A stretch of 64,000 nt of DNA from assembly GCF_026151205.1 (NCBI RefSeq), contig NC_087080.1:3573096-3637095 (forward strand), in the 5' to 3' direction. This document shows, one piece after another, positions 9,101 to 33,100 of the stretch. This DNA comes from Bolinopsis microptera. Its lineage: Eukaryota; Ctenophora; Tentaculata; Lobata; Bolinopsidae. A model generated the notes under the pieces. It searched no databases, was not told where the DNA came from, and saw only the letters and a program-made list of their open reading frames with translations. The position numbers were made by a program, and so were the translations under genes. Each line of letters begins with the position of its first letter. Position 1 is the first letter of the stretch.

Positions 9101-12100
9101 AATATCTTGATTGTTATTATAAACTGCGATTTGTTGCTTGTTATCTATAATTACATAATTAGTTAATTACCTTGTTATTATTATTTTGTATGATATGGGT
9201 TGTAGACTGTACGATAACTTTAGTGACTATCACACTATCACCATTGTAGTCCAGTGACCAATACAACTGTTTAAATAGTGGTATAATCATAATTATAGGT
9301 GGTATAATAATTATTATAGTAATTATAGTGTAATTATAGTGATCATGTGATTACATTCTAGAAGGAAAGATATCAAATTAATCGCGTGCATGGACTATGT
9401 AAAAAGATCAATCCTAACATGTGATTAAAAGTTTTTCATATAACTATAAGAAACAGATATTGATCAAAGAACTTGCTGTGCTTCACTTGCTTGTTAGTTG
9501 TTATAATACTTATAATATAAGTACCGACTGACTCAGATCAAAAGTTTTAAATCGTATTAAAACGGACACAAACGGCATTATTTTTCAATTGCTTTTGTTC
9601 TTTGGTTCTGACTTGGCAACCTTATGCAGTTATTTCCTTACTTTAGTATTCAGTTGGTGATATTTTTGAGAATTCTTATATTTATTATATAATATAATAA
9701 ATATAAGATCTTTGGTTATATATATAACCAAAAATCTTCGTATCAGTATAAGATATTTTATCCTCTAACAGTTTAAACTTTATTTGGAGTTAGGAGAGTA
9801 ATAGTTTAAACCTTGTAAGGAGTTGATAGCTTGTATAAATGTTATATTTCTTTGAATATTTAAGTGCGTTTATTTGGAGCTTCGTTGGCTTTCATAATCC
9901 CAGCGTTACCTCAAATTTGGGTGTTATGTTCGCCGTCCTAAAATTTGTATTTCTTAGTCATAAGAAAGTAAGATTAAACTGTAAATCATATTTATATTAA
10001 TCAGTTAATCAACGATTTTAATATTTCTGCCTCTAGGTTAAAAACTAAGAATGCTGATTCAATTTTTCTGTCTCCTTTTCATCAACATCCTGACCTGCAA
10101 AGCCTACATCACACAACAAGAAGTCTGCAAGTCTAACGTAGTCGTGAGAGCTGTCATCCTCCCAAAGAGCACACTTCACCACGGACATGGAAAACTAACC
10201 GTCCCAAAATTCTACAGACTCTTCGAGATCAAGATACAAGAAATCTTCAAAGACGACCTCAAGACTGGATGGTACGAAAACAGCGTACACTCTGCGATAA
10301 GCAAAGACACCTCCTTCAACCCTGATGCGGATGGATGCGACATTCCTGTCAGCAACAAGCCAACAGAAGCGCTCCTCTACTTCGACAGTTTGGGCAAGGT
10401 AAAAAGGACCTGCAAGTACTGGAGTGACGTCACAAGTTTCGAGAAGAAAGCTCTGAGGAAGGATCTGTACGACTGTGACTGTGATTTGGACCGTTGTTTT
10501 GATCCTGTGAGTAGAAAGAGGGGCAAGCCTGACTGTGATATGAAGAAGATGAACATGATCCGGTGCACGAGGGATGCTGACTATAAATGTGTCTGGAAGG
10601 GAGCGCAGAAGACGTGCCTTGCTTGCAATAGTTACAGTCCAGCCAAGAAACATTGCGCTAGTATGTGGTTCTGATGAGATCTAGGGGGCTACAACTTTCT
10701 GGAACTTTCTAGAACTTTGCACCTTCTTACATAAAATGGAGAGATGTGGCTAGAGTTTTGAGAAACTATAAGTATAGGTTACGACTGCACTGATAGGAAC
10801 TGACTTGGTCTTCAAAAAAACAACTTAGAAAAGATGAAGAGATTTTAATGATTACTTTTCTTTGTAAGTTATAAGTTTATGATAATTCCTCTGAATGCCC
10901 ACTTCTAAATCGTTGTATTTTAGTCATTGCTTCGTGTCTTAAGTGTAGAAAATGTGCAAGTAGTAAGCATGATATTTCTGATTAATAAATTTAATATTCT
11001 ACAGTTTTGAAGTAAACTACATTATCATATTATTATATTATGTTTTGTAGTTCATTAATTATATTATGTTTAGGCAAATACGTTAAAAAGAGGAAAATAT
11101 GATAGTTATTTATGTAAAATTCGTTTAAATCTGCCAATGACGGTCTTAAGCTCGTGTCCTCAACCGTGCGTTTTATTTGTGTATACATAATGAGTTTTCA
11201 TTGCTGTATTGAGTATTGACGGGTTTCCGATATTGTGGCTTCAAATTACTAGTTATAAAGCCAAAAAGATAAAATCTTAAATTTCGATTCTTGTTAGGAG
11301 AGAGTAATCTTGTTCACCCATTAAAATCCACATAACCAGAACAATCTAACCTAACCAGTGGGCTCAGCCAGTCGCACATAATTGAGAATAGAAAGAGTTT
11401 GTTAATGGTGAAGGATGGAATTATATATCTGGCCCCGGTTGATATTGGATAATGATATGCCTGGCTCCAGTTGGTTCCAGTAGATTTGTCATGTTGCTTT
11501 ATGACGGGTTGATGGGATTGTTTTATAGTTTGAATTATAATTAACCAAATAAACTTGGCTCCAGTTGTTATAATACATAAAATAACATAATATTATTATG
11601 TTGCTCTTTCCGGTCACTATCTTAGTACCTCATTCAACTCCTTTAATCACGGTCATCCGCTACATGTCTTTGATCTACAACAAATGCAATAGAATTGAGT
11701 CTGAGGCTTTGAAATTCAGCCAGCCTTAACTATAACTTTATGTCAGTGATTGTGTTAAGATGCTACATGATGCTGCTAACTATCGAGCATCACAATCACG
11801 GGTATTGAGATGTTGCCAAGTCACGTGATCACTTATAGGTTATAAGGTTATCGCGGATAATTTGGTCATTTAAAACTTGGTTTCTTTTAGCGTGAGTTGT
11901 CTCCAGTCGTGGATATTATAGCTCAGTTAATTAGTTATGCATAATTTAACTTATCGATTAGAATTCTTGGGATTTTATCGACCAGCCATCCACCGAACCC
12001 AAAAAAGTTTGTTGTAGCATTCTTCTGATATACAATCGCTCGATTGTTCGATTCATTACGCAACAAAAATTACGAAATAATAGAACCCTAAATTGCGTAC

Positions 12101-15100
12101 AGAATGCTATTTCAGTTTCCTTGATACGTAGAATTTATTCCTGACCTTTTATTCTTAGAATGAAGTCGCACAATGACGTTAATCTGTCCGCAATACCTTA
12201 TTATCAGCTTCTAAGATCAAATTTTAATCATCTGGATTAAACTTAGATTATCACAATGGGACTAACAAGATTATTCTCAGATTATCGGCTGTTTAAAGCT
12301 AATTGTGATCGCCCCCGCCCCTCACCTATACAACCTATTATATTCTCTTCACATTCCTCTCCCAGAATTCTAATCTGACAGGAGGTGGGCCTACCCGTAT
12401 TCTTCAGTTTGAAACAATTCTCGAATTAGAAGTCTAAAGAACAATCCAGCGGAATTCCTCTGAATTTCTCACTTTGTATCACACTTTATAACTGTATTAC
12501 TAATATCGTTTACTGGATTATGGCTTCTGAACAGTGAACACCCTAATGATTGTGACGATCGCTGTGACGTCAAAGGTCATGTATTTTCACCTAATTCGTT
12601 AATTTCAAACTTAACACTTACGTCAGCCTTGAACCAACTTCGTATAAATAGGGCGGATGATATCTTGTCCTCATCAGATTTGGAGTTGTGACTTAAGTTC
12701 ATCTGAATCAGTTCACTCTGTGTTTAACCTTAGTTGTTTTTTTGCCCCGTTGTTCATTGCATGTTATTTTACTTCTTAATGGTTTCCTGGTTTTCGTGCT
12801 ATTGGGTACATTCGGTCATCAAGTTATCATATGGTTTTAAATGCTAGTTCAATTTATTCTAAAACGCTTTTACTCATAAACGTTTTTATTATTTAAATAA
12901 TTTTGGAGGCATTAAATTATTAATTATATCCCCTATTATCAAACAAATTTCTTGAATCAATAACCAATCCTACCTCTAGGTCACAATCTAGAAATGTTGA
13001 CTCTTTTCTGTCTCCTTTTCATCAACATCCTGACCTGCAAAGCCTACATCACACAACAAGAAGTCTGCAAGTCTAACGTAGTTGTGAGAGCTGTCATCCT
13101 CCCAAAAGACTCCTTAATCGGACAACTCACCAAACCAACTGTCCCTAGATTCTACAGACTCTTCGAGATCAAGATATTAGAAGTCTTCAAAGATGATCTC
13201 TCTACAGGCTGGGATAACAACAGTGTGCACTATTCGATAACCAAAGATACCTCCTTCAACCCTGATGCGGATGGATGCGACATTCCAGATAGCGACAACC
13301 CTACTGAAGCTCTCCTCTACTTCGACAGTTTGAACAAAGTAAAGAGGCAATGCAAAGTTTGGACGGACTTGACAAAGTTCGAGAAAAAGGCTTTGAAGAA
13401 GGATCTGTACGACTGTTCGTGTGATTTGGACCTGTGCTATGATCCTATCACTAGGACGAAAGGCAAGCCTAACTGTGATAGAGCGAAGATGAACATGATA
13501 CTCTGCACCAAGGGGCAGCACAACAACCAATGTGTGTGGAGAGGTTCCAGGAAGACTTGTCTTTCCTGCAATGCGTACAGCAAAAGAAAAGATTTTTGCA
13601 AACAACCTTTTAATAGGTGGAACTAGTTCGAGAATTGAGATCTACGAGGGTTGGAAGTAAGGTTAGGCGCAGAAAGTTTTCCAACGAAAAACTGTCAGTT
13701 TTAGTGTTTAGATTTTATTGTATTGCTGTATTTATGAATTTGTGGACAATTTATTTGACTATTTATTCTCAATGTTTTTAATTCTGTTTTCCGATTCCAT
13801 TAGATTTAGGCTTACTTAGGATTACTAGAATGACCATTTGCATTATATATGCGTTTTTCTTGATGCTCATAATTGCAATTTTTCAAAGATTTTGATTTTC
13901 GCATGCTTGAATGTTGAAAATTTGTTTACAATGTCAATTGTTAAGTTCTTTTAAAGACATGAATTGTGTGTTTTCCTTTTCACTTATCGGTCATATCATA
14001 TGGAAAAAGATCCACTCACAAAACTCAATATGAGTAAACTTTTATAGTAGACTCAATATGAGTTTACTATAAAAAATAGCTCAATACTAAACTAATATTG
14101 TGTATATTTTTTAACAATCTAAAATTCTAAATGTCTACAAAAATCTTGGAAAAAGGCTAAGCTTGCAAATTAAATTATCAGATGATGATACTAAAGTTAA
14201 CTAATACTTACTATACAAGTAAAGTTCGCAGTATTTAATACAATCAGTAGTCAGTATACTAACCAACATTTTGAACTACGTACTATAAAAGTTTAAAAGT
14301 TGATTCTAGCGCGGCAAAAAAAACACTGAGCTATGGGACCATCAAAACTTGCTGCATTGATATAACTGGATCATTCACTGGTAAAACTTACCTTGATTTA
14401 AACTTACAGAACTTCGCAAAAAATAAATAATATCCTAAATAAATAATGCTAAAATTGTGCAGGACACCAGAGAAAAAGCCGACTTCTCCAGTCCAGATCG
14501 TATCTAAAAGTGCACCACCACCGCACAGTGCAACGTCCCCAAACAGTGCACCACCAGCAGATAGTGCACCTAAACTGGGCGACAGTTTTACTGAACACCG
14601 CTACCCGTCCTTACTGAAGGTACCTGCTATCAAGGAGGATGAAGACTCACCTATTGATAATGGGTTAGTACTTTAAAAGCAGGTTACTGGTAGTACTGTA
14701 GCAAGGAAGTGCTGAAACCAAAGATTTCTGTGCTAGTAGTTCGTAGTTTAATATCACAAGTGCTGAATATCTGGACTGGTGTCTACACCTAAGCCTGCTG
14801 TCTGCTGAAGTCGCATCAGTTCGCATATCTAATAGTAATCTGGATCCCCAGAGCAGAAGAGGTTGATCCAATAAGGGCATCAAGGAGTCCCTCAGGACGG
14901 AAGATAAGTCCTCGGAATAACCTGGTGAACATGGCAACTAGCCCGGTACCTACTCCACGTCCGGTCTCTACTCACAGCATGGCTACTTCTCCTGTCAGAG
15001 GTTTGTTATTATTCTTCCTATTGAGATGTTAAAGGACCAGTTAACTGAAAAATTTGTAGTCTCCAATTTGGCTAAGATTTAAATCAGCTGTGACAAACTG

Positions 15101-18100
15101 GTAAAGAATCGTATCGCCGAAAGAACCAACTCTCTAGCGTACGTGTAACGCGTGTTATTGCAATAATAAGCTGTGGCCTCGTGACGTCACGAAGTCCCTC
15201 AGTGCGCGCTGGCATAGCGTAATACGTTGCAAATGTTTATCGTTGTCATTAAAACACATGTAACTCACTCAAATTTTAGAATTATGACTATTACCCTAGT
15301 TCTCCCAAATCCTTATAGTTTTGGCTATCATCCTAACTAAAGGAATAGCTGATTGGATGTACAGTGCTCACGTCATGATTTTAAACAGTGATATAGCTTC
15401 TTGAACAGTGGCGGGTGAATGTAGGTTAGAAAGTTTCTGCTATTACAGTTCTTATGTCATATGTGATAATTTCGGATTGTTTTCATTGCTTAATTACACA
15501 AGCAGCCAGCAGGGAGACTGTACCGATTATTTTTCCCCAGTCCATGAAACTCTAACGAATTTAGAAAGGATCTAGATAAGTAGGAGTTTGTTCAATTCCG
15601 AGAGCAATTATATTTATAGCATAGCGAAATTTCTAATTTTAATCCGCATGTGTCAGCCAGTATAGGAGACAAGAAGTCTGGCTACTTTACGGCCGTTCCT
15701 CTGGAACCATCAGTAGAAGTAGCTTCTATCAGAACAGTGCCGTGGGAACAGAATTCCCGCCAAAATACCCGGTCTACCAAATAGTAATACAGATTGGAGT
15801 TCGAGTGTATGGTGTGCGGTGTGTTTTGAATTAGACTTGCGGCTTACCTAGTTGTTATCCTAATTGCATTATCATCGGTACATACTTACTTTGTTACTTT
15901 GTTACTTTGTAGGGCTTCATAGAATCCTCTATCGGGCCATCGAAAAAGTCGACCCCCCGGACAGTGTAGAAACTGTTTTATCACCACTCCAATCCAGCAA
16001 GGAGTTTCCATTCCGACGGTTGTATCCTGGAGCTGGAGGCTCGTCCGGAAATGACTTCACGAAGTTCGTTAAAGCTGCTTTGAATTGCATAGGATCCTCG
16101 ATGGTGTGCATATGTGTTGGGATTACATTCCATAATCGAGGTCCGGTTACTGCAAATGAGTTGTCATGTAGTGCTTGATTACGTTGACTGCTGGACTTAG
16201 CTATACTGGGCACAACTGCTTTTTGACCATGTCTGAGAGTCACCGAGAACTGGATACCAATATCATTAGGGCACTTGCAATGCAGAACTTTCCACATGTT
16301 AATGATTAAATATCGTTCTCTTCTTCTTTGCAATGACATCAGATCTAGGGCCTTTAATCTCTGCCAGTAGTTGAGGTGCATTATTAAATCAAAGTTCTAA
16401 ACAAGGGATAGTTTAAAAAACAACGCCCAAGTCTAATCTTTCCCTAAAACAAAAACTAAAAATTAAAAACTTCATTGCAATTTCCGCCAATATCTCTTGT
16501 CATAACTCAAATTACGGAGATAATGCAGGTCAAAGATATTATTTAAATAAAGATTTCTTTTACATAAATCATGCACAATCAGCGAGAATAGATTGCTTTG
16601 GGGTCTTCCTCTTCTCCCTGGTAAGTCCAGTGTATTGATGGCAAAAATGAGGGAAGAAAACGCTGGTCCGTCAATAGGACCCCGCAAAACATGTCCTAAC
16701 ATTCTCCACCGACTACGGGCCACTTTTTCTGACAATGGTTCAGCATTGCAGCGTTTATACAAGTTTTTGTTGGAGATGACTCCTGGGTACTTTATATTCA
16801 AAATAGTGCGAAGATGTCTGCGGTGAACAACATCTTGTTTTTCAAGGATTATTTTGGGGACGGCCCAACAGGATGAGTTGTACATAAGAACCGATACGAC
16901 TAAAGCATTATACAGTATTAGACGTTTGTTTAGGGGCAGTTTATCACTCCAGGCCTTCTTGTAATTGTTAAAGGCAGCATATCCCAGGTTTATGCGACGC
17001 TGAATATCAGCTTTGCTACACAAGACGGACCCTAGAGTGATACTTTTCCTCCATGCTTCATTCCCCGACACTAATTTTCCATCACTGTCGACTTCACCCG
17101 TACTAGCTAAATAAACATGAGTGAAGTCCGTTTTGTCTTCATTGACAAAGAGGTTCCATTTCTCGAGTATAGCTGTTGCCTGGGTCAAAATAGCTCTCAA
17201 GTTGTCTTCCTCTTCATCATTGAAGTCAACATCATCAGCATATTCAGTGTCAAGTGGAAGGCCAGCAATAGTAATCGGGGGGATCGGCCTATCTAAACTG
17301 ATTGTTATAGTCCATCTAAGTTCATTCAAAGCACCAGCCAAGACAAGGGTGAACAGACAGCCGGATAGACAGTCACCTTGGAAAGCTCCAAGGAGACTTA
17401 AAAACTCGGCTGAAAGAACTCCATTTACCTTCACCCGTAGCTTTGTGTTGGACAACAACAACCGGACAATCCTCAGCTCATCCTCAGTACAGCCACACAG
17501 TTTCAGGAGTTCAAGAATCGTAGTGCGTTTGATCGTGTCAAATGCACTAGACATATCAATGCCCATGCGATGATACTCCCATTTCTTTCTTTGGACAACT
17601 GACAGTAGAACTCGCTGACACCAAACAATGTCAGCACAAGAACGAGCGCGTTTATATGCGCACTGCCATGGACCAGTGAAGGCGTTCACTTTTTCTTCTA
17701 TCCTTTTAAGAGTAGCCATAGACAGAATTTTTCTGGCTGCATTGGACAAGGTGAGTGGACGTAAATTCTTCAGAGGACCAATAGGTTTTTTTGGCTTCTG
17801 TAAGGGTGTTATAGTAGCCTCTCCAATGGAAATGGGGAAAGTATGTGTCTCGAAACAACTGTTGATGATTCCAGCATAATGTTCATGGACTGTACTAACT
17901 ATAGTTGAGGTGCATAACATAAATAAAATACTGGTAAGTTTAAATACCAAGTGCAAACGTGTTCAGTCGATCGACCCACTGAACAACTATAGAACTTCCA
18001 AGACCCTATTATTCTTTGGCCATATATTACGGCACGATCGATTGTTAGATGGTTAAAGTTAAACGACATTTCACGTAAAACATTGTCGCCACAGGTTGAT

Positions 18101-21100
18101 CATGGACACTAACAGCTTAATTTGAGATAAATGACTTATGAGTTTCTCTAAAGTTAACTCTAAAGTTGTGCAGTCCAGTCATTTTTGGACATTTATGGAA
18201 ATGAACCTGCAAATGTTCAGATACTAACGAAACTTTGCACAGACCTTCCCGAAGGTGTGAATAAACGATTTTCGTTTGGAGACATTTTTTTGACAGTGGA
18301 GAAAACCCAGGAGGGCCACGCCCATATTGACCCAATAACGTAACCGACCCCTTGCTTCTGAAGGTCGTAGAGACTTCGAAATAGGCTTAAACGAAGCCGC
18401 ATATGCATGTTTATATAGGAGTTATTGAGCAACACATGGCCTAAAATCCATACTTTTCGAGAAATTCGCCAAAAACCATTTTGGGCGTGGTGCTGAGCCC
18501 ATTTTCGATAGGATTGTGATAGAGTCTTTAGACAGGGTGCAAAAGAACTGCAATTAGCATATTAACATATGACTTACGAACAAACATATGCCTTAAAGTG
18601 CTTACTTTTTCAGTTATTGGCGAAAAACTGATTTTCGGTTCCAGAAATCATGCAAAACTATGGGTATCTGGTAAATTGGGCTATGAAGGCCCTAAAGGTT
18701 TTTAAATGTGTGCAAATTGTGCAGAATGGCCATGTTTATATACAACTTATGAAGCAACATGTACCCTAAATTACTTACTTTTCGAGTTATTCGGGGAAAA
18801 ACATTGTATTATGTCCATTTTCTACCTGTAAAATACAGTCTCACGGGCTCCTCTGCGCGCGCAAGGGACTTCGTGACGTCATCGCCAAAATAATACAAAC
18901 GCTATTTACACGCGTTAGAGAGCAGTTAGAGATTTAGGAATTTTGACTCGTTGCTTAGTTTGTTATTTGTCACAATCTGTCAAAATATGAGGATAACTTT
19001 TTTTTCAGTTAACTGGTCCTTTAAACTCATTTCTTGAGTCGTAGTACGGGTTTTTTGGAATCGTGGAAAATCGCCGTTCTATAATAATTATACTGCAGGA
19101 ATACTTGCCAAATTTATTATGGCATCGTATCTAGATTGTTTGGGCACCAGGTCTATTCTGATGACAGTTTTCTTTTGAATGGAATGCGAGAATAGTTTTA
19201 ATATTCCGAAATAACGATTATACCCTCCCTTCAGCTTTACAGGGACCCGTAAAAGGACTAGCTATTGAGAAAAAAGAAGGACACCATTCGTATGACAGAC
19301 AATATACTGATCAAGAGGTATTGGTTCTAGATTTTCCAGTTTTCAATTAGCTGTCAAATGGCGATCATTAGCTATCAATTAGCAATCATTAGCTATCAAA
19401 AGGCAATTATCATCACTATTCGTCATTTATCCGATAATTATTATATTTATGTACTGGTGAGAATTGCAAGATACTTAAAAAATCTCTCACCAAAATTTCA
19501 ATTTAACTTTGTCATAACGGACAGAACAAGGAAAAGAGATTGTACTGTAGTGCCATTACTATGTGTATATTCCCCTAGTTGATAATAAATGCGGAGTCGA
19601 AACTAAAATATGTAGGCGACAGTCTTGCTTCTTTTTTGTTTGTTTGAGAAGCACAGTTATTTACAAATTGCAAAGTTTGCAGTTCAGAAGTCTGAACGAG
19701 TTTGTGTTTTTGGTCCTTCTCCTCCTATAGAGTATTCTGTGCAGTGTACCGTGTTACTATAGAGTACTTTAATACTTTCATAACAAGCTAAAACAGTGTT
19801 AGACAATTACTCCAGTCTAAATCAATTAATTGTTAACGTTTTTAGTATCAATAAAAAGACGATGACCCTTAGTTAAAGTGTCAGGATAAAGTGTTGCGGG
19901 ATAAAAGACCAATCAGCTATAATTCTATCATCACGTTTTAATTTCAGCTAAAAGATCGTCTAGAAAGCCTGATAGTTGGTGGACACTACCCGTTTGCTAG
20001 AGTTGAACAGAAGTCCTATGCTATTGCTGATCCTGATGGCAACAAGGAGGATAAAGAAACAGATAAACAAGTCGGTACCTGGATTCGTGCCAACTTTCCC
20101 AGCGTAAGTTTGTTTAGAACTGTCGCTAAGAATAAGATCACTAAAAATAACATCGTTATTAATCATCAAATAACTGAAGAGTGGATAGCTATAATACCAA
20201 CTTTTAACGTCTGTTATTTGAGGCATCATGTAGCCGGTGGGCCCGACATGATACGACACACCTCGACACGTCGGGGTTTTGTCGGGGTTTTGTCGGGGTT
20301 TGTCGGGGTTTGTCGGGGTTTGTCGGGGTTTGTCGGGGTGTGTCGGGGTGCGTCGGGGTTTGTCGGGGTTTGTCAGGGTTTATCGGGATTCGTTAATAAT
20401 GGATGAAAAGTGATTGGAAGTTGCCTAAAGAAGATTGATCAATGGTATAATGGCGCAGGAGGGTCAACCTGAAAAAAACAGTGCTTGACCCTCCTGCCCC
20501 ACACATGGATCAGGAGGCTCATTTCAGAAAAAGAGTGCTTGACCCTCCTGCCCCGCACATGGATTACAGGGGTCATTTGAAGCCACAAGACCATGTGCAC
20601 GTATCACTACAGCGCGCGATAAGTATGCGCGTGATTACATAAAATCTTACCGCGCGAAGAGCGAGAGTTGGTACAATGTGGCACACGAGTCACGTCAGGC
20701 AGTAGTTGATAAAGTTTTTAAAGTTGTTTTTAAAATATTGAATTATTTAGTACATTGAATTATGTAGTAGTGTCAAATTACCTGGGAACTGTTTGATACT
20801 TTGATGCTGAAATATTGTTATTTTATTTCTAAAAACATCAAGTTCTTGTTTTGGGAACTAAGATCTCTCTCGAATTGATCTTTTTTGGACATTGATTCAT
20901 TGTACTTTAGAAGGCATTGTGATTGATTTGGAGAGTTTTGTAAGGTTTCATAATTTTTATGTAAGTTTTGTTTTGAAATTTTTTGATCGATAGATCCCAA
21001 AAGTTCCAAACTTGTCTTAACTGTCCAATCTCCACTCCTTCCCGCCCTTTACTCCTTTACCGCAATGCCCAAATATCGTGAAAGATGCACACATTGGGAG

Positions 21101-24100
21101 TGTGGACGTTGCCGCTTTGAGAACAAAGGCCACCTCAGAAGCACATGTTCAAGTTGTGGTGCCCCAAAGTCTGAGGGGACCTCAATCCAAGTATATGGAG
21201 ACGAGTGGAGGTGCAAGTCTTGTGCCTATCCCAACTTCTCCTACAGGAAGAATTGTAATAAGTGTGGGAGAAAGGAAGAGACAGAAGAAGAGAAGAAGGC
21301 GAGAGAGGATGAATGGGATAGGAGGGTGAAAGAGGCTGAGGAGGAAGCAGTAAAGACCAGGATAGAAGATGCTGAGCAGCTCATAGATGACGATGAGAGG
21401 GCTCTTGAGCTTGGGTGGCCTGTGGACTGGAGAGAAAGCGGTCATTATAGTGACGAAATGCTAATGCTGATCATGGACGAAACAGCGGAGGATAGGGAGA
21501 AGCAGAGGGAGAGGCGTAGGAAGAAGAAGGAGCTTGAGGGAGACGCTATTCAGAAGGAGATTGAAGGTGAAACTGAAAAAGAGATGGATAAGGAGGGCGA
21601 TGATAAGTCGCAAGGAGAGAATGAAAAACATTGAGTACGTAATGAGCGGATCTATGTTAATATACTGGCCAGTACATTACCAATTATCATATTTTGATAT
21701 CATTATAATTGTGATGCAATATAATAGATATTACATTGTTTTTTATTATTTTAACAATAACAAAAGGCTACACGTTAAATCTTCTTACATTGGGTTGCAG
21801 TTTTTAGTGTTCGACACATGTAGAAAATTATCAATGATAATTAAGAATATTTGTTTAAATTTTACAAATTGCATGATATTTTGGCCTTTGGGATACGTGT
21901 ACTTCTAAGTTGTATAATGCCTTGTAAAGTACATTTTAAAAGTTACTTAGTATTAGTAATACTTTTGAAACTTTCAACAACTTTTATACGTATGTATGTA
22001 TGTTTTTAAAAATACATGATACAAATTTTATTGTTTTTATTCAGCATCGCTTGTTTCATTGAATTGGATTTAGGCAAGTATTGGTAAGGAAGTGAACCGA
22101 TGCGGCGTAGCAAAGCCTGACGCAACACTCCTTTCTTTTCATCCTGTGGCTCTTACTGTCTCCCACTCTTGCTCTTTTGGTCTCTTGCGCTGCGCTCTTG
22201 CTTTCTCACACTCTTGCAGTCCCGTCCGGTATCGTACTCTTCTCTCGTGCTCATAGCTTCATAGTGCGTATTAGATTATTATTATACTGAGTGCACAGTT
22301 TTAACAAGAATTGCGCCCGTTGTTTCGTTTTGGCGGACGCTAGATTTCCATTCACTATAACTATAAATATAAGCTCTAATCAGCTCACTTCATAATAATA
22401 ATATACACAGAGTACATTATACTACGCATGCCATGTACAAATTGGGCTTATTACCTAATACTGTACATAACATAGCATACATTAAAATACACTCGCGCCG
22501 CAGTTTTAATACTTTCAACACTACTATATAACAAATAATTTGAGGATGTACAATGAATGCACAATGACCATGAATCTCTAAACTCGTTGGCAATGGGGTA
22601 GCCTGTGTGGAACCTGCAGGGGTGGTGGAACAGAAGACTTGCTGATGGCCCTGCTTGAGAGTTGAGTACTTGTTGTGCTGTTGTTATGTAAACACACTTC
22701 ACTCATCCTCACAGTCATCACAGTCACCACACCTGGAGGGCTCACAGCATTGTGTATTCATGGTGCTCCCTCCGGCCATCATAAAAATAGTAGTGTTGAA
22801 AGTATTCAAATTGTATCTTATCTGTCTTATTGAAATATACCCAGATTTGATATTGACTAATTAACACCCTTTCAGCTTTGCTATTTGGGCTTCCCAGCCC
22901 TCACCTTCCACAACATCCTCCATACCATCCCTCACATCATCAACCCTATCATCTCACTCTCATATCAATCCTGTCTATGTTGGTCTGTCAGTGTGTCAGT
23001 CTATAGATTCTTATTATGATTATTTCTATATAGCTATGATATTTCACATCCTTCACGTTGCTCATTATTATACTCTATACTACTCTTCTCTCTCCCAGGT
23101 CCTGAGGCCTGTCTGACGGGACACCACCCCGAACAGTCCACCGGCTGCCCCCGCCTCTTCTCATAATCATGGTACACGATAGATCTCTACGTAATGCTCG
23201 TCCTCACAAGGCTCCACCCAACGATCCAAATAACAGCCTCTACGACTCACCTCAATCAAGAGTTTCCCTCTACAAGGAGCAGCTGAAGTGTAACACCGAA
23301 TCTCCTACTGTCATACCAGAAAGCCCCATTGATGTTACTGGAGACAAATTCTTTGATGCAGAGAGCCTTGTCCCCAAAACCCCATCAAACCAGGGTACTC
23401 CTAGTGCAAGTGCCAAGAGCACACCTTCTCAAAACAAGAGAACTCCTACCCAAAACAAAAAGAAGTGTCCATGCAAGAAGAGTGACAAAAACTCAACCTA
23501 CATCACCTGCAACAAGTGTCAACAGCAATGGCATAATAGGTGCAGTAATCTACTCGGCCTTTCACCATCAGATATTAAGAAAATGGAACTGTGGGAGTGC
23601 CCAAGCTGTTATGTCTGTCCCGCACTTAGTAAGGTACCTTCATCCCTCTACGCTGACATCCGTTCAACTAAGGAGGTTGTCACTGCATTATGTCTTAGTG
23701 AACGCTCTTCAAACCAGGCGTTGGTTAATGATGATGTCACAGAGAAACTGAACATGCTACAGCAAGAGATAAAAGGCCTCCGTGAGTCTGCCTTCCAGAG
23801 AGTTGACCAGCCACACCCAGAGAGCACGACCCTGTTGACAGCTGAAGCTGTCACTAGCATCCAAAACAGCCTCTTACACCTGACTGAACAAGTCACATCC
23901 ATGAAGTCGTCGCTTGGCAACAGAAGCAGCAGCCCTCGGCCTCCACCAAACAGGATGCCACAGCCTAACCATGGTCCTGGTCCCACATCCCCTACCCCAC
24001 CTAATACCGCTTCTCCACACACAAAGAAACATGTGACACCGTGCAAGCCCTATGAAATGTATGACCCTCTAGCCCTTACACCAGAACTTAAGGAGGAAGT

Positions 24101-27100
24101 CCAAGCGTTCATCAGTGGTAACTGTAGCGAATTTACTAGTGTTGGTGAGAACTCTCGTGAAGTAATGTACTTTGGTGACTTCTCGTATAGGTACACTGGC
24201 ACTGAGCACCCAGCAAGAGAAATGCCGCACGTGCTGAAGAAGCTTCTTGAAACAATTGTTCCTAAAATACCTTCTCCAGTGAATGATAGGAATACTAAGA
24301 TTAACTCGTGTCTCATTAGTAAGTATAGCTCTGGTGCTAACCACATTCCAATGCACAGAGATGATGAGCCTGTGATTGATCCCGAATCTCACATCCTCAC
24401 GATCTCACTAGGAGCTGCCCGTACCATGTCCTTCTGCAATAATGATGATAGCCAATCAGAAGATCTCCCCCTTCAGGACAACAGCTTGTTAGTCACAACG
24501 AGATATGCGCAGGACTTTTGGAAACATGGGATCCTCCCAGACGAGAATGTCTCCACAGAGAGAGTGAGCCTGACCTTTAGACATATTTCTCCTCACTTCA
24601 TCAATTCGACCATCATTCTGGGTGATTCAAACACCTCCAGGATGACATTTGGTGACTCAGTAGGTACCTTTGGTCGTTGGGTTTCTGGGAAGCGTGTTTT
24701 GGTAGGTCACATGGAGGCTCTCCCTGATGCAATTGAGATTGGCCCTTACCGTAATATTGTCATCCATACTGGAATCAACAGTATTAACTCTCGGTCTCAT
24801 CCACGATCAGAAGCCTACCTCCTCCATGTCCTCGAATCCAAGTGCAGAGACATTACTGAAACCTACCCCAAATCCAAAATCCACTTGTCAATGTTACTTC
24901 CAACTAGACTAAACTCTCTAAATAGAAAAGTTGAAAGCTTTAATCGGGGCATCCTCGATGTGTCTTATCAGCAAAGAAACATTTTTATTATTGATAACTC
25001 TATTTTTGGTCGCCAGCTCTCTGATGAGTATGGCAGATGGGATATTGCTGCAAATGGCCCTCTTACCTCAGATATTGTCCACCTTGGTAAAAGTGGTATC
25101 CGTAAATTTGCTGCGAATATTAAGGAATCTGTAGCTGGCAGAAGGAGTAGCCAGTCTAGAGCACGTTTTAACACCAGTCAGGGGAACTTCGGCGGAGCGG
25201 TAGCGGGTGGTAGGCGCCCACCATAATTATGATGATCAAACAACCACAAATTACTAAGAATGTTTGCAAGGGATGCAATAAATTTATCTCAACACACCAC
25301 AAAATTTTGAACTGTAGCTCCTGTGGAACAGTTACTCACTCTAAATGTGCCAAAAATCTCTTCCAATACAGCCACACCAATGATAGCTGGCAATGCTACA
25401 TCTGCATCGCCAGCTTACCACAACGGTACTGCCCATTTGCTTCTGCACTTATACGTGACAAACATGACCCAGTCCACCTTGATGAAATTGAAGATGTTTC
25501 TGAAATCAATGAAATCCATAAAAGCTGTAAAAATTATGATCATAAAAGCTTTAAGAACCTCATAAAGCTGTATCATAGAAATGGGCAGAACCTTACTGGT
25601 ATTTTTAACAATATTGATGGAAATGCTGCAAATTTTGATACATTTGTCACAGAAATCTCACAGTACAGTCATCCACTCTCGTTTATTGGCTTGGCTGAGA
25701 CAAATATTGATGCAAACCTCAAAGACCTGTATAGGATACCCGGTTATCTCTCTGAATACACCAATAAATTACGTGACAAATCTAAAGGTAGTGGAGTGGG
25801 AATTTACATCAATGAGTCACTTACTTACACCCGTATTGATAAACTATGTATGTGTACCCCTAACCTTGAATCAGTGTTTGTCTCCATAACAAATGTTGGC
25901 AGGCCCCAAACAGTTGGCGTCCTATACAGACCACCTGGTGGATCTGACAAAGATGCCCTACACGAATTTGAGAGCCTTCTTAATCAGGTTCCTGATAGGA
26001 ACGTTATCCTGCTTGGAGATTTCAACTTTAATCTATTTAATAAAGGCTCTGCCAGCTTTGAAAACATTTTATATGGAAATAACTTCATCCCACTTATATC
26101 ACTGGCAACGCACCATAAACCAGGCTGTGTCCCATCGCTTATTGACAATATTCTGACAAACTCCACTGACAATATTGTGTCAGCTGGACTACTGGATACC
26201 AGGGTTTCGCATCACTCTCCAATTTTCTGTATTCTCGAATGTAGCATGCCTGAAGAACCAGAACTTGACCCTTGTAAACCAAAATATGACTACTGTGAAT
26301 CTAATATGAACAAGTTCTTAGAAGATATTCAAACAAATTTTTGTGGGCAGGTGTGCTACAACGTAGAAAACTTTGAAATTTTTGCAAATAAGATAAAACT
26401 TTTGATCGAAGAAAACTTTTTAATTGAATCTGAATCGTTCAAAAAGTCAAAAAGAAATATGATTGCAAACCCTTGGATCACACCAGGGATCATTGCATCA
26501 GTGAAAAAGAAAGAATATCTTTACAAGCAGTGGAAGAGTACAATTAAGGAACCCAACCCTCTTGGAGACTCTGATCTATACTTAACCTATAGTAAATTCC
26601 GTCGACAGTTAAAATACATTATCAGATCTGCCAAGAAATTGTACTATTGCAGAAAATTCTCAAAAGTCTCAGGTAATATGAAGCAAACATGGGCACTGAT
26701 CAATGAACTGAGAGGAAAAACAAAAACTGGAATTAAGGCCTCGTTCAAAATAGATGGTAGTTTAGTAAAAGACAAACGTGTCATATCGAATGGCTTTAAC
26801 ATGTTCTTCTCTTCCATTGCAGGTAAACTTAATGCGAAGCTCTGCTCCTCCAAACCAATAAGTCGTGACACAGCTTGCCAGAGACCCCTTGATTATAAGA
26901 ACTATTTTAACAAAAGAGTCACCAACAGTATGTTCTTAAACCCCTGTGATTCTGAGGAAATCGAAAAAATTGTTAAAACCTTCCAGTGTGACAAGGCTAG
27001 TGACATATCAATAGCTGTTCTTAAGAAATGTTGCACAACAATCTCTAGGCACCTAGCTGGTTTCCTAAATTCATTCATGAAGCTGGGTCTATTTCCAAAT

Positions 27101-30100
27101 ATTCTCAAAATAGGTAAGGTTACCCCAGTATTTAAAAAAGGAGACCCACAGCTGTTTGACAACTACAGGCCTATATCCATTCTACCTATCTTTGGTAAGA
27201 TATTTGAAAAAGTAATTTACTGCCGACTATATAGCTTCTTTACTTCACATATGGTCATATACGATAAACAGTTTGGATTCAGATCCAACCACTCAACGGC
27301 ACATGCCATCAATTACTCCATTGACCACATTCTTAAAAACCTAGAAAGTAAGAATCATGTAATTGGCATATTTATTGACTTAAGCAAAGCGTTTGACACA
27401 ATCGACCACAGAAAATTACTTGTCAAACTTGAACACTATGGCATAAGAGGGCCCTGTCTTGGCCTAATTGAAAGCTATTTGTGTAACCGACAGCAGTATG
27501 TTGATTTCCAAAATACACACTCTGATCACTGCAAAATTGAATATGGGGTACCACAGGGATCAGTTCTAGGCCCTCTCCTCTTCTTACTCTACATTAATGA
27601 CATTACTAACTCTAGCCAACTTGGACACTTCATACTGTTTGCAGATGACACAAACATATTTGTTGCTGGAAAAACTGAAAAAGAAGCCTATTTTAATGCT
27701 AATAAAGTACTTGAATCTGTAAATAACTATATGGAATCTAACTTGCTGCACATTAACCAAAGCAAATCGGTCTACATGTTGTTCAGACCTGGCAGGTACT
27801 CGTCCTGTGCACGTGCTCGCGAATATGGCTCTGAGAACTCACTCACGTTATCAGGCACCACACTTACACAAGTAGATAAAGTGAGATTCCTTGGTGTTAT
27901 CATAGACCATGAACTATCCTGGGAACCCCAACTAGATAACATAAAAAGTAAACTAACTACAAGTATAGCTATAATTAAACGTATTATGAAGTTTATTCCA
28001 GAAACAGAGTACCATAAACTGTATGACTCCTTATTCAAGTCTCATATGAGCTACTGTATCAGTAGCTGGGGTGGTGTCACACCTCATAGACTATCTAAAC
28101 TGTTCTCCATCCAAAAAAGATGCGTACGCCTTCTATTTGGAAGCAAACCAAGCTTTGACCGGGCAGAGTACTATGAAACATGTGCACGTGCAAGACCATA
28201 CAGTGAACACATCGCAAAAAGGAGCTTTGCTTTGGAAAACACTAAGCCAATTTTCAATACCGAGAAAATCATGTCAATCCACAACCTGTACATCCAACAT
28301 ATATCCACTGAACTGTTTAAAATCTTGAAACTGCATCAACCCATCTCTCTGACAAGTTTATTCCAAACAAGTTCCAGAACATGTAGCCAAACTATGCGGG
28401 TCCCCCGACACAAACTTGACATTTCTAAACACAATTTTGTCGTCAAAGGTACGACTATATGGAACAGTTTGATTGATAAAATATTCGACAAATGCACTCC
28501 TAATGAAAACAATGTCATGGTCCCTGGCTCTAGTAAATTTTCCGACCTTTCCTCCCCCATCTCAATTATCAAGAGCCGTATCAAAAAGCTGTTACTGGAA
28601 ACCCAGCAATTGACAACACCTGGGCGTGAAATTGAGTGGCTCCCCCTAAATAGCTGGGGCATTGAACCAGCTTAGTTGATCAGCATCCCATCCCTTGCAT
28701 ACAATTAATTACAAAAGCGCTAATTATACCTGTTTCAAAAGCATCCTGTCTGGAAGTTCCCTGACTGCCGTGTGAATCTTTGGATCTATTTTTGGCTCTA
28801 TTTTTATATTGATATGATTTTTATATACCTATATATCCATCGCATAATTTCCATGTCCGCCTGAACAAACCTGGCACCATCAAATCTTACCTCTAGAAAC
28901 CCCAGAACAAATCAAGCCTAGTCTGAATTCAAAACTAGTTGACCAGCTACGTACAGTTTCCTGGACAACTGGAACCTTTTTGGGCCATGCACAAGCCAAT
29001 AGCATGTATGGTCCTGCAGTGGGGTCTCCTTGTCCTTGGATCTGTGTTTTGATCCGTCTTTTCTTAAAATTTTCAATTTGTGTCACTTAGACTCACCTAT
29101 TAAATGTTAATCGACACCACTGGTCCTAGTTAGATTTAGCCAAGGCACGACTACTCAAAAGTAACAGTTAAATAGGTGTGACATACTATTATATTCTTAT
29201 AATTATATCATATGAATTGATTGCACTGCTAATAAATAAAATACTTTGTTTTACTAAAATACTTTGTTTTTACATTCATTGACATTTTTTTTTTTTTTTT
29301 TTTGGTCGAGGGCGCTCACTCTACCTCCCCGGATTAGCAAGGAGGCTACGTCCGCCTTGTGGCTAACGTCTGATGGAGCTCCTTTGGACTGCAGGCTTTG
29401 TACCTTTTGCTCTGCTTGGCATGGGGTTCGCAGAGCCCGGTACGTCCAAAAGACATAACATAGTTATGACCCGGTGGATCGGCGATGACCCTAAGGTTAT
29501 CTGCCATAATGATCCGTCATCGAGAGACTCCATAGAACCCGTCTGGAGTCAGGTGTCGAAACACCTTCCCGGAAAAGGTAGTGCGTTACTTCGAGGAACT
29601 ACCACCGCATTATGCTAGCGGGCCTGCCCTGGTGATCCTCGAGGTTGAGTCGTGCTTTTAGTATTTAGGAGGATCGAGTTGAGATGATATTAAACTCGAA
29701 CCCTGGTGTGATGTTCCTTTGGTTTATCTTTGGTTTCACGTATTTATCTTTTTGACGTCATGTGGTGCCGTTTGTGAAGTAGTCTATAGTTGCTCGTGAA
29801 AATATGTTCGTGCGCGGTATTTCTATGCTAGTTTGACTTGGCGCTTTCCAGACTCTTCCTGTTGTAGAGCTGAGAGCTGAGAGCGCTCACTTTGGAGTTT
29901 TAGTGATATTCCGTGGTTTATATGGTTTTGCGGCTGGTTCAATAATGTCATTTTTCCATGACTGGATGGGTTATTTTGTCCACTTTCCGTGGCGGAGTAG
30001 ATAGTGCCAGTCTCTGTGTTTGAACTGCTGATGTGATTGAGTGAGTGAGATGCTGCATTGCTACTGGCTGACTCGCCAGCAGCAATGCAAGTCCAAGAAG

Positions 30101-33100
30101 AAAGAAGGAGAGACACTGTCCGTTTTCTGGGTGAACCACCACCGACAGTGCTCCCACTTCTGTGGGGCTGAGGGTGTTGGCTCCAAGAACCAGCCGTGAG
30201 CGAACAGCGCCTGACCCCCTCTGTGGTTAACTTGAGAATAATAGGACTATGCCATTCTCCAGGCCAATCCGTTCAGTAACCAGCTGACCCAGCACCACCT
30301 CTGATGGAAGATGTGGTTCGGATTGGACTTCGCTAGGATTTGTCAGTTTTTCTGTATACACTAATGCTCCCTCGAGGAGAGACATGAGCCCCGGAGAAAC
30401 TGACCAAAAAAACGTGACAAGGATTCTCACCCTATTCATTGACATGCTAGCTATATATACATTAAATATCCGCAAGCAATACTCGCGCGCTGCACTGCGC
30501 GCTAGTTGTCATGGTAACTAACGGAAGGAAGGAAGGACTGACGACATATTTATATCCACTTAAATTACCTCGTTATGAGAGCTCCAGAGTATTATTTTCG
30601 TCAATTTGATACCGAAATTATTGGGCAAACTGACATAATCCGACATACCCTGACATATCTCGACACGTCGGGATATGTCGGGGTCTGTCGGGGTTTGTCG
30701 GAATATGTCGGGGTCTGTCGGGGTTTGTCGGGGTTTGTCAGGATATGTCGGGGTGCGTCGGGGTGCGTCGGGGTGCGTCGGGGTTTGTCGGGGTTTGTCG
30801 AGCCTGGAGGCTACATGATGCCTTATTTGATTTATTGATAAATTCAATCATCCGGTCGTTAAATCATTGTCAGATAACTAGTTATTCTTCAGTGGTACCA
30901 CGTGGTACTTAATTCAGTGATTCAAGATGTAATGTGTCTTACATTTTAGTAGAGGCTCTTACGGGCAAAAAGACGTGTTTTCTGCTACGAGTTTAGAGAC
31001 CTAACCGCTAATTGGACACAATAGTATGATGTCTAAGGATCGATAATATGTTAAGAAGTATAAATTTGGCCTTATTAGTCACGTGCTATACCAATGCGCG
31101 TTTTAAACTTTGACAGTCTATTACTCTAAGGCAAATAAAGTAATTATATCCATATTTTGTCAGCAATAAGATCACATTATTTTCTATTTAGTGTGAAAAT
31201 ATGAGCTAGAACGGACATAATCTCGCTGAGTTATAGCTGTTTGAAATTTATGATGAACGCGCGGGTGCCAATTGATAACAACTAAATGCTTTTGCGCGTA
31301 GTGCGCGTCGAAAATTTGGCAAAAACGCTTGCGGAGTGACAATATTCAAACTTCGATTAAGTATATGAAGTGGGTACTTCTCGGAAAGGAAAAATTTAGG
31401 CAAACACGATGTGACTATTTTTGGGTTGATTTAATACAACTGCAAAAAATTATTCAAACTTAAAGCAAAAAAAGTCAAAATTTTTACCACTTTTTTGGAT
31501 TTTTACCTCAGAACAAATAGAGGGATTTGTTTTATTTTTATACAATCTTGTGCGGCTGTCTTTTAGCTATCTTTATGCAAGTTTTGCCGACATGCCAACA
31601 AAATTAACTTGCTCAAAATATCAAAAAACATGGTTTTTTGGCCTATTTTTGGCCCAAAAATCGGTTTTTTGCGATTTTACCCCAGAACAATCAGTCCAAT
31701 CATCTTGAAACCACTTTCAATCGATTCTACGGTCAAAAATACGTCTAGTAAGGTGTATCTGGGGTCCCTAACGTATCGAGCAGACAATGCCCGTAAGAGC
31801 CTCTACTATTTAGGTAATCCAATAACCAGTTTTACTGCAATAAATTGTCATGGTAGCGAGATAGGGCTCAACCTAGTAAACATTGGCGGGAATGATTGAT
31901 TCCCTCCTTCCTTAGGTTTGCTCTTGCAACTTTGTAACAATGTTTGTTTGTATACCTCCTATTTGACCTAGTCAGTGTTTCGTGAGTGTTAAAAACAGTC
32001 AGTCGAAGTCACTTATATGATATTAAATCTTCATATTTTTCATGTTTAAGTTGATTGCCACGTACTGTGTAAATCGAGCATAGGAACGTGATACCCAGAA
32101 GTAATTCAGAAGTGTAACATGTTCATTATTCCAAAGTTCATTAATAATAAGGTAGATTCAATTTACAGTAAGGTAGATTCATTAATAATAAGCTAGATTC
32201 GATCCTGGCAAATTAATGTAATTTTTCGTCGTCAATGGCTTTCCTTTTCTTTAATGGGGCCCCTCATCTAGTTGTAGTTCCCAAGCTTGGTCAAAGTTTA
32301 ACATTTTTGTCGTGTTATTTTATATTCACCATTGGTATTAGATCAGAATGTTTCTTAGCCAAAGATAAGGTATCTAAAGATAAGGTTTCTTAAGATAAGG
32401 TTTCCTAGTGTTAATGAGTTTTGAGGTGATTTACAGATGTCATTCCATCGTGTCCCAACTACGACTACACGTAAGTTAATCGACTCTGGAAAAAGTTCAC
32501 TGTTGTGAAAATGTCTTTGTTTTTAAACTGTAATTCCAGTTTACTGTTCATGACCGCTTACTGCGAGGATTCCAGTAGCCCTGGCTCCGGTAGACCTTCT
32601 ATTTTTAGTACAGACAACATTAATCGGAGATGCATGATCCCATTAATAAATTATCAATACAGTGTACACTGTTCTTCTACACCTGCCTCTATGACAAAGG
32701 ACTCGCAACATTATTAATAACTTGATTATTAATAACTTACTGCATATTTTTTAACGAAATTTATTGTATGATAACGTTTTCGTAATTTCAGGAAGGAGAG
32801 AATCTTACATTTGAGGACAGTTCACCTCTGAAAGGAGCCGCTCTGGATCTTGAACTAAAACTCAGAAAATACCAGTCTCAAATCGGCGACAAACCAAACA
32901 AAAAGAACGCCCCAGTGAGTCTGCCTTTTTAAGTGTCTAACACTCATAACATCCATAATCATAACATGCAGATAAAATTTATCTGCCTATCATCAATCAT
33001 GAAAGATTCCAGACGTGTAGTGTTATTGAGTCCCATTCAATGATTCTTTCAAGAGAATTTAAGTATTTTTCTGAATAGACTCATTGATAACAATCTTCTA

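Follow-up and report, generated by a model that had tools for sequence, protein, structure and literature searches.

The 64,000-nucleotide stretch of Bolinopsis microptera DNA analysed here (contig NC_087080.1, positions 3,573,096 to 3,637,095 of the forward strand; hereafter the window) carries a full-length long interspersed nuclear element (LINE) of a family designated LINE1, whose first open reading frame (ORF1) encodes an AlkB-type dioxygenase dependent on 2-oxoglutarate (2OG) and Fe(II). We tentatively propose, at somewhat less than an even chance, that LINE ORF1 has gained this dioxygenase and that it may perform ALKBH2/3-like demethylation of the element's own copying intermediates. 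No part of LINEs is less understood than the ORF1 proteins, to which a catalytic domain of known chemistry gives a concrete, testable job. The domains of ORF1 are arranged in the order PHD-like finger, helices, AlkB dioxygenase and SGNH esterase; the reading as a LINE ORF1 with PHD-like finger, AlkB and SGNH esterase, made from the sequence alone in a preliminary description of the same DNA, is supported by hidden Markov model (HMM) searches, profile comparison, predicted fold and conservation.

The Pfam model PF13532 (2OG-FeII_Oxy_2) matched residues 338-471 of ORF1 with an E value of 2.5e-21 (77.2 bits against a cut-off of 31.2), and the residues H396, D398, H453, R465 and R471, listed in the preliminary description as hallmarks of AlkB, are all present. 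By sequence, human ALKBH2 comes closest among solved structures (2.1e-10), followed by ALKBH3, and a profile of 12 ORF1s, several of which are close copies of one another, reached ALKBH2 at 3e-17 as well as ALKBH3, ALKBH8 and E. coli AlkB. ORF1 matched chains named DNA N6-methyl adenine demethylase only at E 0.48-0.74. AlphaFold modelling of ORF1 from the 12-row alignment gave a mean predicted local distance difference test score (pLDDT) of 60 overall because of disordered parts, with the AlkB region at 74-94 by blocks except around residue 375, where the score falls to 63. The predicted model contains the double-stranded beta-helix fold of AlkB: ABH2 ranked first in the Foldseek search (4.5e-14), and VIA-align superposed the AlkB model on ABH2 with Z 21.3 and a root mean square deviation of 2.1 over 175 residues. 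The fold search also returned C. elegans NMAD-1, ALKBH5 and FTO, all ranked below ABH2 and ABH3, and a Foldseek comparison with viral proteins matched AlkBs of giant viruses and of plant viruses, which is expected of this domain. Both the HMM search and the structure prediction, named as checks in the preliminary description, bore out the AlkB assignment. An acid following the metal ligands (H-x-D-x-E) was found in 11 of 11 rows of a representative alignment, A2, in which, as in the profile built from it, the row of the host gene L050 is without its C-terminal part (not so in the trees described below). According to the available parts of PMC3985658 and PMC12795828, this acid corresponds to E175 of ALKBH2, which lies by the base.

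The flanking domains of ORF1 were recognized at lower scores. The C4HC3 ligand set of the PHD-like finger is complete (C100/C102/C114/C117/H122/C125/C144/C147), with a Pfam PHD match at E 0.007, under the cut-off, and a match to the BPTF PHD finger at 2.4e-4; the profile of 12 ORF1s matched PHD fingers from 2.4e-4, and in none of the ORF1s that showed the finger did it reach the Pfam cut-off. The predicted helices possibly form a coiled coil. The esterase part of this ORF1 copy matched no Pfam family, related ORF1s of family LINE3 matched Lipase_GDSL_2 under its cut-off, and the profile of 12 ORF1s matched 4c1b, the solved LINE ORF1 esterase, at 8.2e-5. Folded alone, this part reached pLDDT 82 and matched GDSL/PAF-AH-like hydrolases with Z up to 18.9 (2hsj). 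It holds the catalytic Ser S487, Asp D635 and His H638 together with the oxyanion Asn N537, as in an esterase of the ZfL2-1 type, and these four residues are invariant in 8/8 aligned sequences.

The element itself is a two-ORF LINE (non-long terminal repeat (non-LTR) retrotransposon) with an endonuclease and a reverse transcriptase (RT) in ORF2, present in multiple copies. As the preliminary description had it, ORF1 (23169-25226) is intact and followed two bases on by a full ORF2 (25229-28675), likewise intact; the ORF1 stop and the ORF2 start are closely spaced (TAATTATG). The ends were set by comparison with eight other copies in the same genome, stitched by coordinate at 98-100% identity, and the copies are recent, as they are near-identical. 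The 5' end is common to three of the eight copies within about 2 bases, and five begin at differing points further in; position 29270 is the 3' end in six of the eight, whose 5' starts lie at 22505, 22506, 22964, 23096, 24242 and 24662, and two copies (C13, C11) are without the last 0.7 kb. Target-primed reverse transcription usually leaves variable 5' truncation, and the 3' end common to six of these eight copies, with variable 5' truncation, is that of a LINE. Target site duplications were not detected, no string longer than 6 bases being shared in the seven copies with both ends, and RNase H was absent among Pfam matches to ORF2 up to E 0.1. Short 3' repeat tails, of the kind seen at the end of LINE1, occur in CR1/L2 clades. 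The PHD finger and SGNH esterase in ORF1 are features of CR1/L2-type elements, and the anatomy of LINE1 resembles the CR1/L2 group as set out in the available part of PMC4120745, RTs having been compared in an internal tree only.

Genome-wide searches, which cover the window's own assembly (GCF_026151205.1; 264.65 Mb, 232 contigs), revealed that the domain is widespread. The ORF1 search gave at least 84 matches (65 of 1449 candidates scored), comprising near-identical copies and two families, at about 40% and about 30% identity. PF13532 gave at least 151 matches (150 of 588 candidates scored) in frames of many sizes, and a search with the AlkB domain of locus L072 gave at least 150 (the best 150 of 765), none of which overlaps the 150 typed PF13532 matches. 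The union of the three typed lists amounts to at least 320 distinct places, at least three of them host genes. Eight LINE ORF1 families with AlkB, belonging to several distant RT lineages, were found among the fetched loci. LINE1, LINE2, LINE3 (L043-type, L046, L047) and LINE4 (L060, L065) combine the PHD-like finger, AlkB and SGNH domains, and their representatives have an ORF2 with RT, broken in L046. LINE5 and LINE7 carry AlkB and an SGNH match under the cut-off, with more distant RTs (about 30% and 36% identical) and no PHD match in ORF1. LINE6 pairs AlkB with a weak SGNH match, and its RT is very distant (25%); LINE8 (L072) has AlkB with a weak SGNH match in which the catalytic residues align.

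The genome was also surveyed from the RT, through the 150 best RVT_1 matches (of 6531 candidates): at least 71 have AlkB 2.3-6.7 kb upstream on the same strand, and 1 of the 150 has it in a downstream control. The figure of 71 is a lower bound, because many LINE copies are 5'-truncated and only the best-scored AlkB matches were counted; the other 79 have no AlkB upstream among the matches listed, and 5'-truncated copies look AlkB-less. No LINE demonstrably without AlkB was found among the loci and matches listed: L072, considered as an AlkB-less control, was rejected since it carries AlkB and SGNH, and a frame-1128 RT family considered AlkB-free was rejected since the search with the L072 domain puts AlkB upstream of it. 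Within the LINEs AlkB is old: families just 38-52% identical in ORF2 carry it. A search of viral contigs, and of viral contigs only, with the ORF1 profile found no relative.

Two loci depart from these layouts. L048 (546-1721) is a 392-aa frame with PHD and AlkB and no esterase, in which the first R of Rx5R is G and for which no endonuclease or RT match was found within the fetched 6.1 kb; it is either a truncated copy or a domesticated gene. At L040/L028 (C12:12222331-12225819) a LINE2 copy has an ORF1 frame of about 1163 aa, lengthened at its upstream end by an in-frame join with other sequence.

The same domain was found in Helitrons, DNA transposons that copy by rolling circle and are not known to pass through an RNA intermediate. 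A single open frame of L055 contains AlkB (4.6e-21), DUF6570 (1e-13), Helitron_like_N (3.2e-22) and, under the cut-off, Lipase_GDSL_2 (8.3e-6), and thus holds the Rep/Helitron_like_N domain expected of a Helitron. The fetched part of L064 contains GDSL (4e-11, above the cut-off) and AlkB (1e-17), with a Helitron_like_N match further on, in an open frame of equal length (3226 aa). In the genome, which holds 41 Helitron_like_N rows (51/51 candidates scored), AlkB lies 3.6-4.5 kb upstream in 9 of the 41 (about 8 loci), and 32 have no AlkB upstream among the matches listed. The order of domains differs between the two classes: AlkB precedes SGNH in LINEs, and SGNH precedes AlkB in the Helitron frames of L055 and L064. 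In these Helitron-type frames (L055:2883-9500, L064:1648-6501) SGNH and AlkB stand ahead of the Rep domain, and in a further one (L058:745-3348) only the AlkB part lies within the frame read; all three have long, repeated linkers rich in Pro and Ala. Three Helitron_like_N matches of equal score lie on one strand of C11, 10-12 kb apart (3834408, 3846209, 3856595), possibly a tandem Helitron array.

The fetched loci contain 48 complete AlkB domains, or 41 element domains after removal of 4 duplicate views and 3 host genes (by hand), and the HxD...H...Rx5R pattern is kept in 40 of the 41, the exception being L048, in a sample of best-scored loci that favours intact AlkB domains. The loss of H/D/H/R residues in other copies, raised in the preliminary description as a condition that would undo its reading, is therefore not what we observe, and this holds across families whose AlkB domains are 28-41% identical to that of LINE1. 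The ratio of nonsynonymous to synonymous changes (omega), computed in the manner of Nei and Gojobori part by part of the frame, with between-subfamily pairs saturated or nearly so, was 0.13-0.18 for AlkB in LINE1 pairs (3-8 changes per pair), 0.17 and 0.20 in two informative LINE2 pairs, 0.19 in LINE4, 0.14 in LINE5 (at 1.7 synonymous changes per site), 0.05-0.06 in LINE6 and 0.15 and 0.19 in Helitrons. These values are mostly below those of the 5' part of the same frames, which reach 0.66. In those pairs whose changes are numerous enough to be informative, AlkB evolves under purifying selection, which answers the comparison across copies suggested in the preliminary description.

The host genome has its own AlkB genes, one ALKBH2-like (L050, 3.9e-60) and two ALKBH3-like (L051, 2.5e-39; L052, 1.6e-27). 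The gene L052 (C5:22266892) is a second ALKBH3-like gene besides L051, and ALKBH3 seems to have been duplicated in the host. The phylogeny against host genes that the preliminary description had called for was computed on 25 rows including human ALKBH2 and ALKBH3 and excluding ALKBH1, ALKBH4-8 and other animals. It separates LINE1-5, 7 and 8 and the Helitrons from the host genes and LINE6 with support 99/97, so that all element AlkBs except LINE6 stand apart from host ALKBH2/3. The five host rows fall on one side of a branch with 87/83, or 100/99 without LINE6. The tree is compatible with one origin for all element AlkBs, that of LINE6 among them; a second capture in LINE6, resting on a long branch, is possible. 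The Helitrons fall in one set with LINE1-4 and 8 (90/94); when L072 is left out, the split of elements from host genes and LINE6 has 99/96 and the Helitrons pair with LINE4 (82/77). An arrangement holding all LINEs, LINE6 included, together without the Helitrons was rejected (p 0.019). Because the Helitron AlkBs fall among the LINE ones, the tree suggests transfer of AlkB between element classes.

From the best sequence matches and the acid after HxD we infer an ALKBH2/3-like substrate class. ORF1p, the RNA-packaging protein, would bring the AlkB demethylase to the element's own nucleic acid, where the domain would remove N-methyl adducts of the 1-methyladenine (m1A) and 3-methylcytosine (m3C) type within the ORF1 ribonucleoprotein (RNP). 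Such adducts block copying by polymerases. The substrate would be RNA, complementary DNA (cDNA) or an RNA-cDNA hybrid in LINEs and the rolling-circle DNA strand in Helitrons; single strands expose the base face where m1A and m3C form, and one activity would therefore serve both. More broadly, though with rather less confidence than an even bet would imply, AlkB, a direct-reversal demethylase, may in a comb jelly have become a common tool of selfish DNA, carried in the packaging protein of several LINE lineages, exchanged with Helitrons and acting on the exposed copying intermediate. The same AlkB-SGNH pair in Helitrons points to a need common to elements with RNA and DNA intermediates. If true, transposons of both kinds would share an element-encoded system of nucleic-acid repair (or unmarking). 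The finding also raises the question of how mobile elements are alkylated or methyl-marked in ctenophore germlines.

Several observations weigh against an active repair enzyme shared in this way, beginning with the sampling of best-scored loci described above. In the N-x-Y pair, which stabilises 2OG, Y386 is kept in LINE1 and the N is replaced by S384; the N is likewise T in LINE2, L062 and L063, so that 4 of 9 element representatives lack it, and it is kept in L043, L065, L053, L055 and L072 and in the host genes L050 and L051. One LINE2 pair has an AlkB omega of 0.54 on 3 changes, two others have 2 nonsynonymous and 0 synonymous AlkB changes (omega undefined), and the esterase part of LINE2 is held more tightly than AlkB (0.05-0.06 in two informative pairs). 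A clade of LINE1-5 and 7 without the Helitrons was not rejected (approximately unbiased test, p 0.138). Finally, the available part of PMC12795828 describes ABH2 as opening duplexes with F102 of a hairpin, and that of PMC3985658 gives duplex DNA as the setting in which ALKBH2 acts on m1A/m3C, and single-stranded DNA for ALKBH3. In a check alignment an F of LINE1, LINE2, LINE5 (F or Y), LINE7, LINE8 and the Helitrons stands opposite F102, and in others it lies one residue beside that column; the V and G that flank F102 in the V-F-G base-probing hairpin are not kept in ORF1, and the loop aligns poorly. An F also stands there in the ALKBH3-like host gene L052, and strand preference is therefore not readable from sequence. 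As the F102 column does not decide it, confidence in the repair mechanism is slightly lowered. A loss of the duplex-probing F102 in element AlkBs, considered at one point, was dropped because the check alignment places an F there.

The preliminary description had offered two roles, repair of the element's own RNA template and escape from host methylation marks, and function is still something that we infer. Repair of an RNA template alone is insufficient, because Helitrons carry AlkB too. As to escape, the main rival of the repair model is an eraser that strips host marks from element RNA (N6-methyladenine (m6A) or m1A) or DNA (6mA) and so evades silencing or decay. Such an activity could be of use to RNA elements and DNA elements alike, and the RNP could be anchored to chromatin through the PHD finger; NMAD-1, ALKBH5 and FTO are among the fold matches, and a plant Gypsy-encoded AlkB demethylates m6A in single-stranded RNA in vitro (PMC9289625, available part). 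The m6A variant is weakened, though: among solved structures ALKBH2/3, and not ALKBH5/FTO, come closest in sequence, the N6-methyl adenine demethylase chains and the fold ranks both pointing the same way, and ALKBH5 lowers L1 activity in human cells according to the available part of PMC7873242. We consider the eraser unlikely, if still a serious contender.

Less probable again is a repurposed fold, in which AlkB only binds RNA or DNA or helps ORF1p to fold and catalysis is dispensable. Binding nucleic acid is the general role of ORF1 proteins, and the replaced N of N-x-Y fits such a role; a binding-only fold should lose its iron and 2OG ligands, however, and these are kept in nearly every domain across the divergent families. 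Counter-defence in trans, on host RNA sensors, tRNA, protein or alkylated insertion-site DNA, draws on the range of AlkB homologues, which act on DNA, RNA and protein (PMC12494543, in its available part), but purifying selection within one family is easiest explained by action in cis, and we regard this reading as improbable. That the domain is a passenger of chance fusion or misassembly is scarcely credible and was rejected on copy number, selection and conservation: nothing was found in its favour, and AlkB occurs in at least 320 places, many copies and families and two element classes, so the random single-copy fusion feared in the preliminary description is not the case. PHD and esterase alone would make an ordinary CR1/L2-type ORF1. 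The reading we prefer remains demethylation of the element's own copying intermediates. The features of LINE1 are collected in Table 1.

Table 1. Features of the LINE1 element, with positions in the window
Feature	Position	Strand	Evidence or remark
Full-length LINE, family LINE1	22505..29270	+	about 6.77 kb; aligned to 8 stitched copies at 98-100%
5' untranslated region of LINE1	22505..23168	+	common to full-length copies
ORF1, 685 aa, intact	23169..25226	+	open reading frame
PHD-like C4HC3 zinc finger, aa 100-147	23466..23609	+	eight ligands present
Predicted helices, aa 158-180, 188-210, 225-248	23640..23912	+	AlphaFold model, low confidence there
AlkB-type 2OG-Fe(II) dioxygenase, aa 290-475	24036..24593	+	Pfam 2.5e-21; ALKBH2 2.1e-10; predicted fold Z 21.3 to ABH2
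H396-R-D398 iron ligands	24354..24362	+	H and D invariant in 12/12 aligned ORF1s
H453 iron ligand	24525..24527	+	invariant in 12/12 aligned ORF1s
R465-x5-R471	24561..24581	+	R471 in 12/12, R465 in 11/12 aligned ORF1s
SGNH/GDSL esterase, aa 480-656	24606..25136	+	4c1b profile match; predicted fold; S487, N537, D635, H638
ORF2, 1148 aa, intact	25229..28675	+	open reading frame
PHD/C1-like finger, ORF2 start	25265..25405	+	Pfam Prok-RING_1 3.1e-4, C1_1 4.9e-4, PHD 0.012, all under cut-off
Endonuclease (Exo_endo_phos)	25610..26194	+	E 2.2e-7, above cut-off
Reverse transcriptase (RVT_1)	27140..27904	+	E 6.1e-39
3' untranslated region of LINE1	28676..29270	+	repeated AAAATACTTTGTTTTACT-like units at end, no poly(A); 6/8 copies end there

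Other features of the window were recorded beside the element. Directly 3' of LINE1, the segment 29274-30445 opens on a run of poly(T), and copies of ATTCATTGACAT stand on both sides (at 29274 and 30434, 1.16 kb apart); the segment is probably another poly(A) retroposon, inserted antisense at the LINE1 end. The same decamer, GTCGGGGTTT, forms two arrays (20270-20387 and 30667-30800) that flank LINE1 about 10 kb apart. A second, very distant RT fragment lies at 16472-17956 on the minus strand (RVT_1 2e-18), 22% identical to the LINE1 RT over the aligned part. Neighbouring TIMP-like open frames occupy 10051-10674 and 12994-13626 (Pfam TIMP 1.4e-7 and 4.2e-6), and a 405-bp tandem repeat with 3.8 copies, 99% matches and an inner period of 21 bp extends over 60968-62526.

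Among known systems, the CR1/L2 elements with type III (PHD) and type IV (esterase) ORF1s (PMC4120745, available part; ZfL2-1, PMC3905857) likewise have two ORFs with endonuclease and RT, and in some L2 elements a PHD finger probably stands at the start of ORF2 as well (PMC4120745, same part). The combination of PHD, AlkB and esterase is not among the ORF1 types given in the available part of PMC4120745, where esterase-type ORF1s are found only in vertebrate groups, and the terms AlkB and oxygenase occur nowhere in the texts of PMC4120745 (to the extent available) and PMC3905857. A survey of literature titles and abstract openings, with Repbase, Dfam, preprints and most subscription journals outside its scope, turned up no account of AlkB within ORF1 of a LINE or within a Helitron. 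The frame of L055 shares Helitron_like_N and DUF6570 with Helitrons and differs from them by the added SGNH-type and AlkB domains. Human and host ALKBH2 and ALKBH3 share with the element AlkBs the fold (Z about 21), HxD...H, Rx5R and the acid after HxD; the element domains, except those of LINE6, stand apart from L050, L051 and L052, and N-x-Y varies among them.

Precedents for AlkB in mobile replicators are plant RNA viruses and an orchid Gypsy element. Plant RNA viruses are likewise mobile RNA replicators with AlkB in a multidomain protein and a proposed repair of genomic RNA, and differ from LINE1 in that their AlkB stands in a viral replicase context. No PHD or esterase is known to accompany plant RNA virus AlkBs. 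The viruses concerned belong to the Alpha- and Betaflexiviridae and the Closteroviridae (PMC9289625, available part). According to the same part of that source, Ty3/Gypsy elements of Phalaenopsis likewise carry AlkB in a retrotransposon, and their protein demethylates m6A in vitro; the case differs in being an LTR element with a separate extra ORF of ALKBH5-like type in one orchid lineage. Unlike in the orchid, the AlkB described here lies inside ORF1, is nearest to ALKBH2/3 and occurs in an animal, in Helitrons as well as in many LINE families.

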